A DNA stretch of 64,000 bases from Synechococcus sp. BIOS-U3-1. Lineage in GTDB: Bacteria > Cyanobacteriota > Cyanobacteriia > PCC-6307 > Cyanobiaceae. The stretch is taken from assembly GCF_014279975.1 (NCBI RefSeq), contig NZ_CP047936.1:1736001-1800000 (forward strand), given 5' to 3'. A program made the translations under genes and the position numbers. Below the pieces are notes generated by a model, which saw nothing but the letters and a program-made list of their open reading frames with translations, was not told the origin of the DNA and ran no database searches. Below, piece by piece: positions 7,825 through 21,460 of this stretch. Every line of letters starts with the position of its first letter. Within the stretch, counting starts at the first letter, position 1.

Positions 7825-8856
<1,032 letters not shown>

Positions 8857-8889: not shown

Positions 8890-10119
8890 TTAAAGAGCCC
8901 TTTCTAGCTGTTGCATCTCAATCAAGCGTGCCAATGCTTGTTGACATGTCCAGCGCAAGGGAACCCAAGGTGCCGATGAAGAGAGCTCATAAAGAAGGTC
9001 CATCTGGTCATAAAGTTTTAACTCAACGCACGCCCATGCCGCTGCAATTCTTGATTTCGTATATTGGGGAGTCGTTTCAGCAAGGGCAGACCGAATAAGA
9101 TTACTTTTTTCGCTGATTTTACGCAAGCCAACAAGACAACTAAGGTAATAGTGGGTTACATAATCGGACCATAGTCTTTCCTGCATACTCTCAATCAATT
9201 CAATACATTCACTGCGATTAATCCGCATCAGGCTCGCTGCAGCACCGTACTGTCGAGCTTCATCGCGATGGCTGAGATTTTGCTCTATGTCAGCAGGATC
9301 TGGTCCACACTCCCACTCAGAACGAATATCCAACAACAAAGGATCATCTCGAAGCAGCTGTTGAAACAAAGCCTGGTTTTCAGCTTTTGAAAGAGTCTGA
9401 TTGGCGTCAACGATCTGCAAAAAACTCTTCGCTCGAAGCGACATGGATACCGGAGCCCGAACCAAAACAGGCAGGAGACTTTCATCCCCAGAATCACCAA
9501 TATCAATCACCGCAGATCTCCTTTTACCAGCAACCAGATCGTTGAGAGATGCCACTAATGGTTTCATCAAAACAGATTCGCCATAAAGGGAAGCCATATA
9601 AGCTCTGGCAGCACCGGAGATCAAAAGACTTTCATGGTCACAACAATCAACGATGCAAGACTTCGAGCGACGACTCTTAATTCCAAGTCTTGTGAAAGTT
9701 TGGATCACTGCACGAGTTTGTGTCACTTCCCCATTTAATAATTCCAGAAGACGATCTTCTTCTGCTTCAATGGGGCGCCATCCAATTCTAGTCAAGGCCG
9801 ACAGTGCATTAATCACGGCCTCAGTGTCACTGCACCCCAAGACATCAAAAAGAGCAGGGATGGATCTTGGATCTTTTCGTCGACCTAAAGCCTCAACAAC
9901 CTTACGCCTGGTAATTCGGTCAAATAATTCGTCGACTTTGAGCTCATGCGTCGCTCGAATCAAAGCATCAAGCGTTTTATCACTATCAGAAAGCCCTAAT
10001 CGAGTCGCTGCAAAATAGCGATCAGCTGGCCTTTCAACACAAGCTGTGTCAGCAAAAAGCAGCGAAAGAGCATCAGCCTCTGACAGTCCTTGCACTAAAA
10101 CATCAAAACGCTCTGCCAT
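8890..10119 (-). CDS. mpeZ: Phycobilin lyase of the HEAT-repeat (CpcE/F, CpeY, MpeY/MpeZ) family, probable MpeZ lyase-isomerase
   Basis: About 409 residues from ATG 10119 (MAERFDVLVQGLSE); a start at 10182 is possible but less family-like. The N-terminal half has DRYFAATRLG and HEAT-type repeats including ITRRKVVEALGRRKDPRSI, typical of E/F-type lyases. Known MpeZ attaches phycoerythrobilin to Cys83 of the alpha subunit of phycoerythrin II and isomerises it to phycourobilin in blue light. MpeZ is favoured over its relative MpeW because an FciC-like gene is next to it, the published mark of CA4-A islands. AT-rich coding against GC-rich flanks supports acquisition. MpeY, MpeW or MpeQ would need a tree to exclude. 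Confidence 0.75.
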   Translation of the reverse strand: MAERFDVLVQGLSEADALSLLFADTACVERPADRYFAATRLGLSDSDKTLDALIRATHELKVDELFDRITRRKVVEALGRRKDPRSIPALFDVLGCSDTEAVINALSALTRIGWRPIEAEEDRLLELLNGEVTQTRAVIQTFTRLGIKSRRSKSCIVDCCDHESLLISGAARAYMASLYGESVLMKPLVASLNDLVAGKRRSAVIDIGDSGDESLLPVLVRAPVSMSLRAKSFLQIVDANQTLSKAENQALFQQLLRDDPLLLDIRSEWECGPDPADIEQNLSHRDEARQYGAAASLMRINRSECIELIESMQERLWSDYVTHYYLSCLVGLRKISEKSNLIRSALAETTPQYTKSRIAAAWACVELKLYDQMDLLYELSSSAPWVPLRWTCQQALARLIEMQQLERAL

Positions 10120-10383
10120 AACCAAACAAATGGCTTGAGAAAAGCTATCAGAGAAAAATTCAAAATTTCTCAGAAAAAGCAACTCATAAAACTATTTTGA
10201 ATAAAGCAGAAACCAATACTTTAAGAAAGAAAGCATCTCACAAATACAAGAAATAAACCACTGAAAAAGTCGAATTCACAAAAACACAATTGCACAAAAC
10301 CATAAAAACTACTCAGCGCAACATAGCTCCACAAAAAAATATGGAGTCCTAGGCCCTAAAGGATAAAAAAACGATTTAAAGAA

Positions 10384-10551
10384 CTACTTTGAGCGGCGAT
10401 CGATCAATTCGATGAGATGAGCATCATGCTTATTACAAAACTCAGAAACGCACTCACGCAAGATATGACCGATAGAAACTGATTCGGTATAGCAGAGAAG
10501 CTTTAACTTCTTATGCAGATCGTCGCTGAGCTCAAATGTGACTCTTTTCAT
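10384..10551 (-). CDS. fciC: 55-residue regulator-like protein, probable FciC
   Basis: ATG at 10551, TAG at 10386-10384. The N-terminus MKRVTFELSDDLHKKLK looks like the beta strand and first helix of ribbon-helix-helix DNA-binding proteins, followed by a second helix (SIGHILRECVSEF). Published CA4-A islands contain a third, small possible regulator named fciC; position and size fit. It lies between the two AraC-type genes and the lyase gene, all on the minus strand, with over 200 bases upstream for its own promoter. Confidence 0.65.
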   Translation of the reverse strand: MKRVTFELSDDLHKKLKLLCYTESVSIGHILRECVSEFCNKHDAHLIELIDRRSK

Positions 10552-10784
10552 CTGCAGACAACTGACATGACAAGAGTGCGAAACACGGGAAAGTCCCTTA
10601 TAAGCACATTTTAGTTGTTTTGATAAGAAATGGATACCGATGATCGTTCAGTTTACAAAGCTAAACAGCAGTATCAAATGGATCTGGTGTCGCCAGTCCT
10701 TGACCTGAAGAATCAAATGCTATGAGTGGCTACCGGAAACCAGGTCTTGAGCAACTTGCAAGACCAAAAATGAATCCAAAAGCA

Positions 10785-11732
10785 CTAAGCATTTTGGAGC
10801 GTCTGACTTGGCAATTCTCCGAAACTATTGAAGTATCTCCGGGCATAGCGCCCCGCGTGCTTAAAACCATATCGAACAGCAACTTCACGAATCATGCTTT
10901 CTTCAGCGACCGACTGGTACTGACATCTCAATAAAGCTCGTCTTGACTCCTCCATACGTACTTGCATCATCATCTCAATAACTCCCATTCCAAAATTTTT
11001 CTGACAAACTCGATAAAGTGATGCTTGTGCAGTATCAAGAAATTGGCAGACATCACCCAATGTCATAGGAGCAGACATTTTCTCAGTATCATGAGCTAAA
11101 CGAACAATCTCAGATAAAAGTGTATGATTTTTAGTTTCACCTTTTTTATAGGCACGTGACCTTCCATCTTCTAAACAACAAATAATGAGATCATAATACT
11201 TCGAGGGACTGGATATTCCAGATTGGAGATCTTTTCTTGCCAACCTTTTAAGCTGATTACTCAATTGATCCGAAACTTCCAGTCCCTTATTACTTGTCAG
11301 GTTTTGAATACCAACCTGAGCATTACAAGCAATCATTGCCTCCATCAACGAGGCTTTGTCGAGCATGCAAGCAGTCGAAGAACATAGTGGTGAATACTTT
11401 CCCCATGATCCACCCGGAGACCCATTGTAAGTATTCAAACCTCCAATACTGTTTGCTTTCATCTCATATCCCTCACAAAGTCCCATTGGAGCAACCGAAT
11501 TTTTCAGTGGTGTGATCCAATTAAAATCAACTGACCAATCAGTTCCCCATCCCTCATAAAGAAGTGTTTTTGATGCCTTAATTTCCGCAATTGAAATGCC
11601 AGATGCCATCGAATGAGTCATGCTGTAACTCCCAGCCCCAGAATCAAACTGTGTAATTCTGGTCAGCTGCCCCAACTCATTCAGAGTTTCTGAGAGCTGA
11701 AGAGGATCTGAATAAGGTAGAGATAACTTCAT
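10785..11732 (-). CDS. fciB: AraC-type transcriptional regulator of the CA4 island, probable FciB
   Basis: 315 residues. The last third is an AraC-family DNA-binding domain: a first helix-turn-helix around TLGDVCQFLDTAQASLYRV and a second ending in YGFKHAGRYARRYFNSFGE, the family signature. The N-terminal 200 residues resemble those of the next gene upstream, so the two are tandem paralogues with an unrecognised sensing domain. The start ATG overlaps the stop of that gene by one base (TAATG). FciA and FciB are known regulators of type IV chromatic acclimation with distinct roles; which letter applies is inferred from gene order. Confidence 0.72.
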   Translation of the reverse strand: MKLSLPYSDPLQLSETLNELGQLTRITQFDSGAGSYSMTHSMASGISIAEIKASKTLLYEGWGTDWSVDFNWITPLKNSVAPMGLCEGYEMKANSIGGLNTYNGSPGGSWGKYSPLCSSTACMLDKASLMEAMIACNAQVGIQNLTSNKGLEVSDQLSNQLKRLARKDLQSGISSPSKYYDLIICCLEDGRSRAYKKGETKNHTLLSEIVRLAHDTEKMSAPMTLGDVCQFLDTAQASLYRVCQKNFGMGVIEMMMQVRMEESRRALLRCQYQSVAEESMIREVAVRYGFKHAGRYARRYFNSFGELPSQTLQNA

Positions 11733-12763
11733 TAGTTTCTGAACCTCAACAAATCAGAGACAAACACAGTCGGCTTACTTCCCTTTTCGATCGTTTCCTC
11801 TGGACTCTGGGAGAAAGTTTTGAAGTATAACCTTTTAAAGGTATTCCAATTCTTAAATCCATAATATTCAGAGTTGTTTTTCATTGTAAAATATCGCAAG
11901 CCTTTAGGAACATGTGGATTCAAATATGATTTTTTTACTTGTTCCAGTCTGATACTTTTGATCAGTTCAAGGATGCTCATATCGAAATTTGATCGGCAAA
12001 CGTCGCTCAAAGACTTTTCTTCTGAATTAAGAAATTTAGTGATGTCACTAATACTCAGGGGAGGCAATCCCAGCCTATCTTCATGCAACAACTTGACCAG
12101 ATCTTCAATCAGATCAGTTTTGTCTGATCGTTCCGTAATAAAATTATCGTGATCAGAGGATTCTTCAAGCGTTGCAATCGCAAGATCATAAAAACTTTGT
12201 CCGCACTTAAGGCCATATTCAAAATGCTTTTCGAATAGACGCTTCAACTGTTTGGTGCATTCACTTTCAGAATCAATGCCTATGCACTCTTCTAAACGTG
12301 CATAAGCGTTATAAGCATTCATTTGATCAATCTGCTCTTTTAATTTTTCCCACTTCAAGCTCATGCAGCACAAGACTGTGTTCGCGCCAACAATGTCCCA
12401 TGTATTACCTCCCGCCTTATTCAAACGGTTGAATCCAGCAACGCTTAGATTTCGCATTTTATGGCCGCCAATAACAGTACTGGAGAACGAATCTCGTACT
12501 TGATCTCTAATCCAACAGAATGCAACTGAATTTTGATTAGCGTCTTCTTCATATAACAGTGTCTGATTAGACTTGAAAATTTCTAGATGAACATTCTTAA
12601 TTGGAGCGCAAATTGAACTTGTTATAAGTTCTCCTTTGCTCAACTGTGTGACATTACATTTGAAATTCGATTTTGAATAATATTCAGCATAGTGATTCTG
12701 GCAGTGAGTCTCCATGCCAAGCAAGTCGCCAAAAACATATTCCCTTGCTTTCCTTGCCTTCAT
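11732..12763 (-). CDS. fciA: AraC-type transcriptional regulator of the CA4 island, probable FciA
   Basis: About 343 residues from ATG 12763; a start at 12784 is also open. I prefer 12763 because it overlaps the stop of the 74-codon ORF as ATGA. The C-terminal AraC region has a first helix-turn-helix around SISDITKFLNSEEKSLSDV; the second (YYGFKNWNTFKRLYFKTF) keeps the YGF and F-x-R-x-F spacing but the helix before it is less regular. The N-terminal domain shares motifs with FciB, such as TLLYE and a Gly-rich segment before a cysteine. Coupled to fciB by TAATG. Confidence 0.72.
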   Translation of the reverse strand: MKARKAREYVFGDLLGMETHCQNHYAEYYSKSNFKCNVTQLSKGELITSSICAPIKNVHLEIFKSNQTLLYEEDANQNSVAFCWIRDQVRDSFSSTVIGGHKMRNLSVAGFNRLNKAGGNTWDIVGANTVLCCMSLKWEKLKEQIDQMNAYNAYARLEECIGIDSESECTKQLKRLFEKHFEYGLKCGQSFYDLAIATLEESSDHDNFITERSDKTDLIEDLVKLLHEDRLGLPPLSISDITKFLNSEEKSLSDVCRSNFDMSILELIKSIRLEQVKKSYLNPHVPKGLRYFTMKNNSEYYGFKNWNTFKRLYFKTFSQSPEETIEKGSKPTVFVSDLLRFRN

Positions 12764-12984
12764 GTCCGGCGTGGAGCGATCCAAACAAATTTTTGTTCCG
12801 TAAATCTATAATGAAGATCTGCAGTCGTCAATCTTTGAGCAAACTTCGAAATCTGAAGACAACAATCTTCTAGCGAGATTCTGCGGAAATAAGCCAATAC
12901 GTTACAGTTTTTATGGTTAAAGCCTTGTCCGCCGAGCGTTCGCAGCCAGTCTTGAACAATTAATTGTGCAAGAGCAGAACTCAT
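12760..12984 (-). CDS. 74-residue hypothetical protein coupled to fciA
   Basis: ATG at 12984, TGA at 12762-12760. The TGA overlaps the probable fciA ATG as ATGA, the usual sign of translational coupling. The protein is compact, with a hydrophobic-amphipathic N-terminal helix, three cysteines and a basic end; no domain is recognised. It could be a real third member of the regulator operon, or a leader ORF that sets fciA translation. A 95-base divergent gap separates it from the Nif11 gene. Confidence 0.5.
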   Translation of the reverse strand: MSSALAQLIVQDWLRTLGGQGFNHKNCNVLAYFRRISLEDCCLQISKFAQRLTTADLHYRFTEQKFVWIAPRRT

Positions 12985-13079
12985 AGTTGTGAGCTCGCGC
13001 CAGCAATAAGTGTAATTCTACGATTAGCCATTATTTAGGTCGCTTTTTCAAGTAAAAATGATTGAGATGCAATCATCAG

Positions 13080-13403
13080 ATGAGCAAGTCTGCACTGCAT
13101 GCTTTTATCGACAGGGCAAGGGTCGACGAAGATTTTAAGTCTCAATTATCTGAGCTTGGGCCACAAGAAATAATTGATTTTGCAACGCAAAGCGGATTTC
13201 ACTTTTCCGACGAAATCAAAGGTCGGTTTATCAACCGCTGGGCTGGTGTTTACTTCTGTCCACAGGCAATCGAGGTGGGCATTCTTTGCCCTGGGTTAGT
13301 CCCGAAAGGATATATAAATCTGATTCACTATGCTCAATCAACCTGCAGTTCGACTGAACTCAAAGAAGAAGAGCATGATTTTAGAGCTGGCAAAAAATAC
13401 TAA
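13080..13403 (+). CDS. Nif11-domain protein, 107 aa
   Basis: From ATG 13080 the first 48 residues match the Nif11-like domain: SALHAFIDRARVDEDFKSQL followed by the helix GPQEIIDFATQSGF. The remaining part contains three cysteines and has no double-glycine cleavage motif, so it does not look like a lanthipeptide precursor. Function unknown. It is divergent from the island regulators and converges on psbA. AT-rich like the island, so it may belong to the same insertion. Confidence 0.7.
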   Translation: MSKSALHAFIDRARVDEDFKSQLSELGPQEIIDFATQSGFHFSDEIKGRFINRWAGVYFCPQAIEVGILCPGLVPKGYINLIHYAQSTCSSTELKEEEHDFRAGKKY

Positions 13404-13660: not shown

Positions 13661-14737
13661 TCAACCGATGGCAGGTGCTTGCAGAGCCACAGGTGTGGAC
13701 TCAATAGCAGCCAGGTCGAGGGGGAAGTTGTGAGCGTTGCGCTCGTGCATGACTTCCATGCCGAGGTTGGCGCGGTTCAGCACATCAGCCCAGGTGTTCA
13801 GGACGCGGCCCTGACCATCAAGGACAGACTGGTTGAAGTTGAAACCGTTCAGGTTGAAGGCCATGGTTGACACGCCCATGGACGTGAACCAGATGCCGAC
13901 AACAGGCCAGGCAGCCAGGAAGAAGTGCAGGCTACGGCTGTTGTTGAACGACGCATATTGGAAGATCAGGCGACCGAAGTAACCGTGGGCAGCCACGATG
14001 TTGTAGGTCTCTTCTTCTTGGCCGAACTTGTAGCCGTAGTTCTGGGACTCGCTCTCGGTTGTTTCACGAACCAAGGAGGAGGTCACCAGTGAACCGTGCA
14101 TGGCGGAGAACAGTGAACCACCGAAGACGCCAGCCACACCAAGCATGTGGAAGGGGTGCATCAGGATGTTGTGCTCGGCCTGGAACACCAACATGAAGTT
14201 GAAGGTGCCGGAGATGCCCAGGGGCATGCCGTCAGAGAAGGAACCCTGACCGAAGGGGTAAACCAGGAACACGGCCATGGCTGCAGACAGCGGAGCGCTG
14301 TAAGCAACGCAGATCCAGGGGCGCATGCCGAGGCGGTAGGAAAGCTCCCACTGACGCCCCATGTAGGCGGAGATGCCGATGAGGAAGTGGAAGACAACCA
14401 GCTGGTAAGGACCGCCGTTGTACAGCCACTCATCAAGAGAAGCAGCTTCCCAGATGGGATAGAAGTGAAGGCCAATGGCGTTCGAGGAGGGAACAACAGC
14501 ACCAGAGATGATGTTGTTTCCGTAGATCAGAGAGCCAGCAACGGGCTCACGGATGCCGTCGATGTCGACGGGAGGTGCTGCGATAAACGCAATGATGAAG
14601 CAGACGGTGGCTGCAAGCAGACAGGGAATCATCAGCACACCGAACCAACCCACATAAATGCGGTTATTGGTGTCGGTGACCCACTGACAGAAATTTTCCC
14701 AGCTGCCGCGGCGACCGCTGCGGATTGCAGTAGCCAT
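13661..14737 (-). CDS. psbA: Photosystem II reaction centre protein D1
   Basis: 358 residues with five membrane helices. The QA/QB side and manganese-cluster sequences are intact, including FSDGMPLG (ligand Asp170) and PFHMLG (His190). At the position equivalent to 130 the sequence is GRQWEL, with Gln, as in the low-light D1:1 form; the high-light D1:2 form has Glu. The C-terminus keeps the CtpA processing site after DLA, leaving a short extension. One residue shorter at the N-terminus than the usual numbering. A strong terminator follows and three tandem 11-bp repeats lie upstream. Confidence 0.97.
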
Positions 14738-19425: not shown

Positions 19426-19522
19426 GCCTCACTCATTTGTGAGCGTACATCCACTAATAGGATGTCTGTGGCTTGCCAGCTATAGCAGCAGCCATCGATC
19501 AGATCTCAGGACTCACGCATCC

Positions 19523-21460
19523 ATGCCCGTCGTCACCCTTCCAAACGGAACAACCAAAATTTTCGAAGGGCCTGTCACCATCGCAGACGTAGCTGCATCG
19601 ATTGGCCCTGGGCTTGCCAAGGCAGCTGTAGCAGGAGTGGTGGACGGTGAATCCTTGGACATGGCCATGCCCATCGACAAGGATGTTGACCTGCGTTTGT
19701 TAACAGCAAAAGATGCTGAAGGAATTGACGTCATAAGACACTCTTTTGCTCACCTAGTCGGGCATGCAGTGAAACAGTTATATCCTGAAGCTCAAATGGC
19801 AATTGGACCTGTCATAAAAGACGGATTTTATTACGACATCGCCTATGACAAATCCTTCACTCCAGAAGACTTAGAAGCCATAGAAAAGCGAATGAAAGAG
19901 CTAATAGCAAAGGACTACGAAGTCAATGTTGAGGTGGTAAATCGCAATCAGGCAAAACAAGCATTTGAATCCCGAAAAGAGCCCTACAAATTGAAGATTG
20001 TAGAAGAAATACCCGATGGGGAGATGATCAAGCTTTATCACCATGAGGAGTACACAGACATGTGCCGCGGGCCTCACGTCCCTAACACGAGGCACTTACG
20101 ACATTTCAAATTAATGAAGGTGTCTGGTGCTTACTGGAGAGGCGACTCCAACAACCAGATGCTTCAAAGGATCTATGGAACGGCTTGGGGCACAGAAAAA
20201 GAACTCAAATCACATTTAACGCAACTCGAAGAAGCCGAAAAAAGAGATCACCGTCGCCTTGGTCGCCAGCTGTCACTCTTTCACATCCAGGACAATGCAC
20301 CTGGCATGGTGTTTTGGCATCCCCCTGGGTGGGCGATCTATCAAAAACTTCAGCAATATATCCGTAGACGGCTACGAGAGTCCGGTTATCAAGAAATCAG
20401 CACTCCCCAAATCGTTGACAGAACATTGTGGGAAAAATCAGGACATTGGGATAAATTTAAAGAGGATATGTTTACGACATCCTCAGAGAATCGAGACTAT
20501 GCGGTTAAACCCATGAATTGCCCGTGTCATGTTCAAATTTTCAATCAAGGCTTACGGAGCTATAAAGATTTACCAGTCAGGCTCTCTGAGTTTGGTTCCT
20601 GCCACAGAAATGAACCATCAGGAACACTCCATGGACTAATGAGAGTCAGAAACTTTGTTCAAGATGATGGGCATATCTTTTGTTCAGAAGATCAAATCCA
20701 GTCAGAAGTATCAAGCTTTATCGATCTAGTTTTTGACGTCTACAAAACACTTGGATTTGAAACAATTTCCATTAAATTATCAACTCGACCTGAAAATAGA
20801 GTTGGGAGTGATGAAGTCTGGGATAAGTCTGAGAAGGCACTCCAAGACGCACTAGAAAATAAAAATCTAGAATGGGAATTATACCCAGGTGAAGGAGCAT
20901 TTTATGGTCCCAAAATTGAATTCTCGCTGCAAGACTGCCTCGGAAGAGTCTGGCAATGCGGAACAATTCAGGTTGATTTTTCGATGCCTGATCGACTCGA
21001 TGCAACCTTCATCGGTGAAGACGGGTCTCGACACACACCCGTGATGCTGCACAGAGCCGTTCTTGGCAGTTTTGAGCGATTCATTGGAATTTTGATTGAA
21101 AATTACGCTGGCGACTTTCCCTTTTGGCTTGCACCGGAACAAATTAGAATTCTTCCAGTGAGCGACGACGCAAGAGAATTCTCAGAAACGATCCAGAAAA
21201 AGTTACTTGGCCAGAGTATCGCAGCCACTGTGGATGAATCAGGTGAGCGACTCGGCAAACTGATTCGCAATGGAGAAAAAGCTAAAATCCCAGTATTGGC
21301 GGTAATTGGAGCCAAAGAAGCCGCTAACAATACCGTCAGCCTTAGAAGTCGAAAAAATGGAGATCTTGGAGAGATATCTGTTGACGAATTGATCGCTTAT
21401 TGCAATCAAGCCAACAAAAACAAATCAGAGGATGCTCTGGTTGCAGCCGTACATTCATGA
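19523..21460 (+). CDS. thrS: Threonyl-tRNA synthetase
   Basis: 645 residues from ATG 19523; a start at 19439 adds an unlikely hydrophobic extension. Domain order is TGS, editing domain ([16 protein letters not shown] and the later cysteine in DMCRGPH), class II catalytic core with the zinc-binding MNCPCH, and an anticodon-binding C-terminus. It charges tRNA-Thr and clears mischarged Ser. From about 19690 to 21450 codons are visibly richer in A/T than in flanking genes, hinting at recombination with a low-GC relative. The stop overlaps the next gene as ATGA. Confidence 0.96.

Follow-up and report, generated by a model that had tools for sequence, protein, structure and literature searches.

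A complete CA4-A island between gap1 and psbA in Synechococcus sp. BIOS-U3-1, with a candidate regulator box upstream of mpeZ

Gene content and composition of the island

We analyzed a 64-kb stretch of the genome of Synechococcus sp. BIOS-U3-1 (the window; positions 1,736,001–1,800,000 of the single 2,710,834-bp contig), and found a complete island of chromatic acclimation type IV (CA4), of the CA4-A form, at window positions 8,890–13,403. It comprises unk10, fciA, fciB, fciC and mpeZ between gap1 and psbA, and all five reading frames are open. The mpeZ gene (8,890–10,119, minus strand), encoding a phycoerythrobilin lyase-isomerase of 409 amino acids (aa; HEAT_2, E 6e-11), is followed by its upstream region (10,120–10,383, minus strand) and by fciC (10,384–10,551, minus strand), which encodes a putative ribbon-helix-helix regulator of 55 aa that is conserved in complete islands. 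The AraC-type regulator genes fciB (10,785–11,732, minus strand; 315 aa; HTH_18 E 8e-12) and fciA (11,732–12,763, minus strand; 343 aa; HTH_18 E 2e-6, under the Pfam cut-off) are arranged in tandem, as CA4-A membership requires, the start of fciB overlapping the stop of fciA by one base. As in CA4-A, mpeZ is co-oriented with fciAB, and unk10 (13,080–13,403, plus strand; 107 aa) lies on the opposite strand at the 5' end of the island, across the divergent unk10-fciA intergenic region (12,764–13,079); it encodes a Nif11-domain protein with no assigned function (E 6e-8, above the Pfam cut-off). The flanks outside the island are gap1 on the left (7,852–8,856, plus strand), which is syntenic in relatives, and psbA on the right (13,661–14,737, minus strand).

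A sequence-only reading of this locus had proposed a minus-strand series of two AraC-type regulators, a 55-codon regulator and a HEAT-repeat lyase at 8,890–12,984. All four genes are borne out, whereas the end coordinate, taken from a 74-codon open reading frame at 12,760–12,984 that is most likely not a gene, had to be moved to 13,403 because unk10 is a member of the island. Alignment with relatives places the likely starts of fciA and mpeZ at ATG 12,763 and ATG 10,119, rather than at TTG 12,784 and TTG 10,182. The island has a GC content of 41.4% (mpeZ 46.0%, fciC 41.7%, fciB 41.6%, fciA 37.8%, unk10 43.2%) versus 55.4% for the window, 56.0% for gap1 and 57.2% for psbA. Only 7 of 1,190 sliding windows of island length were equally AT-rich, and all seven overlapped the island, in agreement with the AT-rich coding that the same reading had set against gap1 and psbA. 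It had also placed the block away from phycoerythrin rod genes, which holds within the window and beyond: the island lies at 1,745–1,749 kb of the genome and the phycobilisome rod genes that were found at ~527–541 kb, 1.2 Mb apart. The island thus lies, as in CA4-A, away from the rod-region site that CA4-B islands occupy.

Comparison with published and related islands

The presence of this island in BIOS-U3-1 is already known. Humily et al. 2013 count the strain among those with CA4-A and give a 6.7-fold higher mpeZ level in blue light (PMC3877281), and its assignment to clade CRD1 and pigment type 3dA has also been published (PMC9124967). What the present analysis adds is an empty gap1-psbA site in relatives, psbA gene conversion at the island edge, a candidate regulator box and the loss of mpeY in genomes lacking fciAB. 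Published CA4-A islands, BIOS-U3-1 especially, have the same genes, lie outside the phycobilisome region and often have psbA or hli adjacent, and a comparison with the available text and figure legend of PMC3877281 revealed no difference from the island described here. On one ocean transect, chromatic acclimaters reportedly accounted for over 40% of the marine Synechococcus (PMC10904595).

Among 31 genomes of the genus (designated by G numbers), 17 carried an MpeZ-clade lyase, 11 of them within a whole island and 6 without fciAB. Together with RCC307, SW22112_bin_11, ARS1019 and AG-683-C23, the 11 whole islands gave 15 complete CA4-A islands for comparison, all of which have unk10 at the same place. 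The RCC307 island (L046, CT978603.1) has the same genes in the same order, with MpeZ, FciA and FciB 72%, 75% and 68% identical to those here, and psbA in the same orientation on the unk10 side; the psbA-unk10 distance is ~0.6 kb versus 0.26 kb here, and the fetched stretch contained no gap1. Three CA4-B islands (L061, L062, L079) share fciA (52%–53% identical), fciB (48%–49%) and unk10 (50%–53%) with this island. Unlike it, however, they have mpeW on the other strand and no detected fciC, and they adjoin an MpeQ-type gene of the phycobilisome region.

The lyase belongs to the MpeZ clade

Our lyase tree comprised 78 distinct E/F-type sequences, each with an open frame of 330 codons or more, drawn from the loci of a genus search (for 30 of its matches) and of 41 named places; its MpeY, MpeW and CpeY labels rest on location next to mpeB, on a CA4-B context and on family models. 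The window lyase fell inside a 22-row MpeZ clade (support 100/100) that includes CA4-A strain RCC307, and the genome's own MpeY, its own CpeY and the MpeW rows all fell outside it. The phylogeny that had been put forward as a check on the lyase thus places it with MpeZ, and not in the CpeY or MpeY clades. A 13-row clade labelled MpeQ is the sister of the MpeZ clade.

The enzyme signature agrees with this placement. The window lyase carries HRDE at 284–287, the motif around position 285 that separates MpeZ from CpeY, and a Tyr320-Val321 pair equivalent to that of isomerizing lyases (Y318 and V319 of MpeQ). Across the 78 rows, the Tyr-Val pair occurred in 22/22 MpeZ and 13/13 MpeQ-type rows, and the 43 remaining rows had Gly at the key residue. 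The closest solved relative of the MpeZ alignment was PDB entry 7mc4, titled 'Bilin Lyase-Isomerase' (E 2e-200), which we take to be MpeQ. MpeQ is reported to use Tyr318 to activate the bilin and Val319 to force isomerization, and MpeW to carry Gly (PMC9705338). The genome also contains MpeA with Cys75, Cys83 (the MpeZ target) and Cys140, and an open frame for the competing lyase gene mpeY at 539.5–540.7 kb. Its CpeB carries His141, matching the published His in BIOS-U3-1 (Leu in MITS9220; PMC9705338). Synechococcus-like MpeZ and MpeQ-type genes were also encountered on contigs of a Flavobacteriales metagenome-assembled genome (MAG; L054) and a Deltaproteobacteria MAG (L056), both contigs being most likely mis-binned.

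The Fci regulators

In a tree of 32 AraC-type regulators (a third further AraC gene of the genome, at 2,577 kb, is not among its rows), FciA and FciB each fell in a group of 15 rows from 12 complete CA4-A and 3 CA4-B islands (supports 100/99 and 93/95, respectively), clustering with RCC307 and 10 other complete islands. The expected grouping of the two regulators with FciA and FciB is thereby upheld. The FciA group resolves the CA4-A rows as a clade (99/99) separate from the three CA4-B rows; within the FciB group, the 32-row tree does not separate CA4-A from CA4-B. A second tandem pair of AraC-type genes in the genome (339 and 346 aa; G000:C1:771478-773747; L011 7479-9748, minus strand), with neighbors that by eye resemble a sulfatase and a sulfotransferase, lies outside both groups. 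The third regulator, fciC, is present as in other CA4-A islands and is 84%–95% identical in the 14 other complete ones.

AlphaFold models of FciA and FciB were confident (predicted local distance difference test [pLDDT] scores of 85.9 and 88.3), and their best Foldseek matches were AraC-family proteins: ToxT and Rns for both, and CuxR for FciB. Whole-chain template modeling (TM) scores of these matches were low (~0.25–0.40), such that the individual domains match the AraC family and the domain arrangement does not. In a second structure comparison, the N-terminal part of FciA matched CuxR (Z 13.2; 169 residues, 3.0 Å) as well as the BgaR (Z 9.4) and AraC (Z 7.5) ligand domains, and the C-terminal part matched AraC-type DNA-binding (helix-turn-helix) domains. 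Several of the structure entries matched by FciA or FciB have titles that mention a bound or sensed small ligand. Setting aside low-ranking cupins and unrelated rows, we read both proteins as predicted cupin-type AraC regulators. Such folds suggest that the pair probably reads a ligand or a partner protein, rather than light itself. No photoreceptor fold occurred among the listed structure matches, which still leaves room for one. To our knowledge, no light sensor has been identified for CA4. The predicted cupin ligand domains make it testable what the Fci regulators sense. We also considered whether cysteines of FciA form a redox or bilin-binding cluster, and rejected this: of the 9 Cys in its first 205 residues, 6 do not vary across 12 FciA rows, an excess short of significance (p = 0.09).

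A candidate regulator box upstream of mpeZ

A motif search over the fciC-mpeZ regions of the 15 intact islands identified TATGARTTGYNTTTTTGC-like sites 66–69 bp before the mpeZ ATG in 12 of them. In this genome, the box is TATGAGTTGCTTTTTCTG, which starts 69 bp before the ATG (p = 0.005 when scored with a matrix from other clades, i.e., leave-clade-out). Under leave-clade-out scoring, the best site was at the box position in 12/12 islands and had p < 0.05 in 11/12, the exception being ARS1019 (p = 0.11); a mild circularity attaches to these scores, as box positions had been found from all 15 islands beforehand. None of the six islands lacking fciAB had a significant box (lowest p = 0.06, in G017 at another position), G016 having a weak match 71 bp before mpeZ (p = 0.35). 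This position-fixed box is a candidate FciA/FciB target. Among the papers listed by searches of open-licence PMC text, and in the consulted passages of PMC3877281, we found no account of an FciA or FciB binding site. Natural variants with and without the box make the location of Fci binding testable.

The unk10-fciA region held a box match with p < 0.05 in this genome (0.017, weaker than that upstream of mpeZ), in G009 (0.015) and in G001. Fitting the upstream regions of mpeZ and fciA together produced a longer motif, TG.TGCatTTGTGCaa, with a score of 54.4 versus at most 35.0 in 24 column-permuted controls. We do not rely on it, because column permutation also breaks up ordinary conserved blocks. 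In four upstream regions of two CA4-B loci, no obvious counterpart was seen by eye.

An intact island that would retune phycoerythrin II

The MpeZ clade, the FciA and FciB groups, the presence of fciC and the co-orientation of mpeZ with fciAB all support the CA4-A identity of the island. We consider it almost certain that this is an intact CA4-A island retuning phycoerythrin II between green and blue light by the following mechanism. FciA and FciB, as AraC-type regulators with predicted cupin ligand domains encoded by overlapping genes, would control the island. In blue light, mpeZ would be switched on, probably via the box just upstream of its promoter, and MpeZ would attach phycoerythrobilin (PEB) to MpeA Cys83 and isomerize it to phycourobilin, out-competing MpeY, whereupon the absorption of phycoerythrin II would shift from green to blue. 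In green light, mpeZ would be low and MpeY would win. By analogy, this strain would work like RS9916, in which MpeA Cys83 is served by MpeY in green light and by MpeZ in blue light (PMC7948978). Weighing against this reading are the absence of the box from 3 of the 15 intact islands (G010, G029 and AG-683-C23), the sub-threshold fold matches of fciC (RHH_1, E 0.014; CopG chain, E 0.13), and the frequency of box matches in the unk10-fciA region (3/15), which hardly exceeds that in the fciB-fciC region (2/15) and leaves a second functional box copy there unproven.

The occurrence of fciA, fciB and unk10 in CA4-B too would be compatible with a CA4-B or mixed island, in which the PEB lyase MpeW is induced in green light. 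However, this island contains mpeZ and not mpeW, co-oriented with fciAB, contains fciC and lies outside the phycobilisome region, and its lyase is only 35%–37% identical to three MpeW rows, groups in another clade and has Val, not Gly, at the key residue. Gene content and the tree already refute this alternative, to which we assign practically no probability. Just as improbable is a PEB lyase of the MpeY or CpeY kind in a cluster with another role: although CpeY is the only NCBIfam model that the window lyase matched well (E 9e-48), the match reaches 163 bits against a cut-off of 600, and both the tree and the Tyr-Val pair put the enzyme among the lyase-isomerases.

A somewhat larger, yet still very small, probability attaches to an island that looks complete and is non-functional, as in natural mutants that do not acclimate. 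Complete islands are indeed present in MVIR-18-1, WH8103 and WH8109, which do not acclimate (PMC3877281). In BIOS-U3-1, however, the five island frames and mpeY are open, MpeA Cys83 is present, and the strain is listed as 3dA with blue-induced mpeZ (PMC9124967, PMC3877281).

Probable insertion site and psbA gene conversion

A comparison of gap1-psbA neighborhoods, which the sequence-only reading had proposed, revealed an empty site in relatives without an island there. Among 13 fetched loci, gap1 and psbA were adjacent, 97–294 bp apart and with no island, in G004, G005, G011, G023 and G024, and their spacing was 1.3 kb in G013 and ~4.3 kb in G002; at the other six loci, either the contig ended or no psbA turned up next to gap1. 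The empty site suggests that the island was most likely inserted there in the line of this genome, G009, G008 and G028. Six of the 15 complete islands (this genome, G009, G005, RCC307, SW22112 and ARS1019, the last four without gap1 in the fetched stretch) have a psbA gene on the unk10 side, 3'-to-3' at a distance of 0.3–0.7 kb, and no psbA was found in the fetched stretch of the other nine. In some strains, unk14 has been reported between psbA and unk10 (PMC3877281).

The genome carries five psbA copies, which evolve in concert, the 3' end of the island copy matching the four others; the conversion tract ends near the island edge. Over the last 75 aligned columns (gene end and terminator), the island psbA shares 100% identity with the second copy in this genome and 81% with its G009 island counterpart, implying that gene conversion extends to the island edge. 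This agrees with the proposal of Humily et al. 2013 that psbA is a recombination hotspot (PMC3877281), without proving it, and the island may have arrived beside psbA by recombination. In pattern scans of viral contigs, neither the MpeZ and FciA/FciB alignments nor the window FciB had a confirmed relative, and 50,697 phage records contained no MpeZ relative; phage transfer of the island is thus unsupported.

Islands without fciAB and loss of mpeY

The six mpeZ genomes without fciAB are G008, G014, G016, G017, G018 and G028. In all of these except G016, the island (BIOS-E4-1 type) resembles that of BIOS-U3-1 in having an mpeZ 77%–84% identical to it, and fciC and unk10 beside gap1. In G008 and G028, psbA is on the other side, as here, and the contigs of G014, G017 and G018 end before it. 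Unlike the present island, they have no fciA or fciB, and their mpeZ upstream regions cannot be aligned with it: alignments of the five CRD1-type islands with this genome or G009 were no better than shuffles (10/10 pairs). The pattern of G008 (no fciAB, no mpeY) fits that published for BIOS-E4-1, and that of G006, which has fciAB (fciA with a stop) and no mpeZ, fits WH8016. Only broken fciA and fciB fragments with several stops, and no mpeZ, are kept in G022 (G022:C1:2255307-2256164).

Loss of fciAB was accompanied by loss of mpeY. Unlike this genome, G008, G028, G017 and G018 (4/4 assessable of the five) have no intact mpeY: its place beside mpeB gave no match in G008, G028 and G018, and the gene in G017 is broken by two frame changes and one stop, though sequencing errors are possible there because the assembly is fragmented and of single-cell type (QCUI01) and the mpeY piece starts at a contig end. 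In G016, a 65-residue remnant with 38% identity persists. Overall, 5/5 assessable mpeZ genomes without fciAB lack an intact mpeY (G014 was excluded because mpeZ is its only lyase match), and 11/11 genomes with complete islands have an mpeY match; the five cases are not independent, as the genomes are related. The in-frame stops counted in mpeY of G005, G010 and G029 fall in matches reaching query position 404, past the usual end, and open mpeY frames of 397 aa were recovered for UW105 and UW140. That mpeY decayed along with the loss of fciAB suggests what converting an acclimator into a blue specialist requires.

The remaining island, that of G016 (L099/L055, AG-679-C18), has mpeZ and unk10, no fciA, fciB or fciC match, and the mpeY remnant in the rod region. 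G016 is also the deepest MpeZ branch in the 78-row tree, which, with the lack of an fciC match, suggests a separate event and possibly an independent blue specialist.

The five CRD1-type islands without fciAB share, upstream of mpeZ, a 14- to 23-bp element with the unk10-fciA region of this genome (AAAAACTGTAACGTAT, 12,897–12,912, minus strand) and of G009. Of their pairs with these two intact CRD1-type islands, 8/10 beat all 200 shuffles; for the two pairs with G014, 2 and 4 shuffles scored at least as high. Among 20 pairs involving four other-clade islands, one (G007-G028) was reached by only 1 of 200 shuffles. Allowing up to one mismatch, the element pattern had 8 hits in the 31 genomes, 7 in these seven islands and 1 elsewhere in G008, and a reversed control pattern had 6 hits in 5 genomes. 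Taken jointly, the position-fixed box may be a direct FciA/FciB target, and islands may have turned more than once into 'blue specialist' cassettes by losing fciAB and mpeY and by swapping the mpeZ promoter for a box-less one, which in the CRD1-type islands would share the 14- to 23-bp element with the lost unk10-fciA region. We hold this combined scenario tentatively, judging it slightly less probable than its negation.

Elsewhere in G008, three identical-score matches to one AraC-type frame, ~20 kb apart (G008:C1:3114562-3155144), suggest a recent repeat in that genome. Outside the island, the window also contains thrS (19,439–21,460), which is AT-rich (43.7% GC at 20–21 kb), 94% identical in G008 and G028 and only 40%–46% identical to the partial matches that five other genomes have at this place, and looks like a replaced, foreign threonyl-tRNA synthetase gene.

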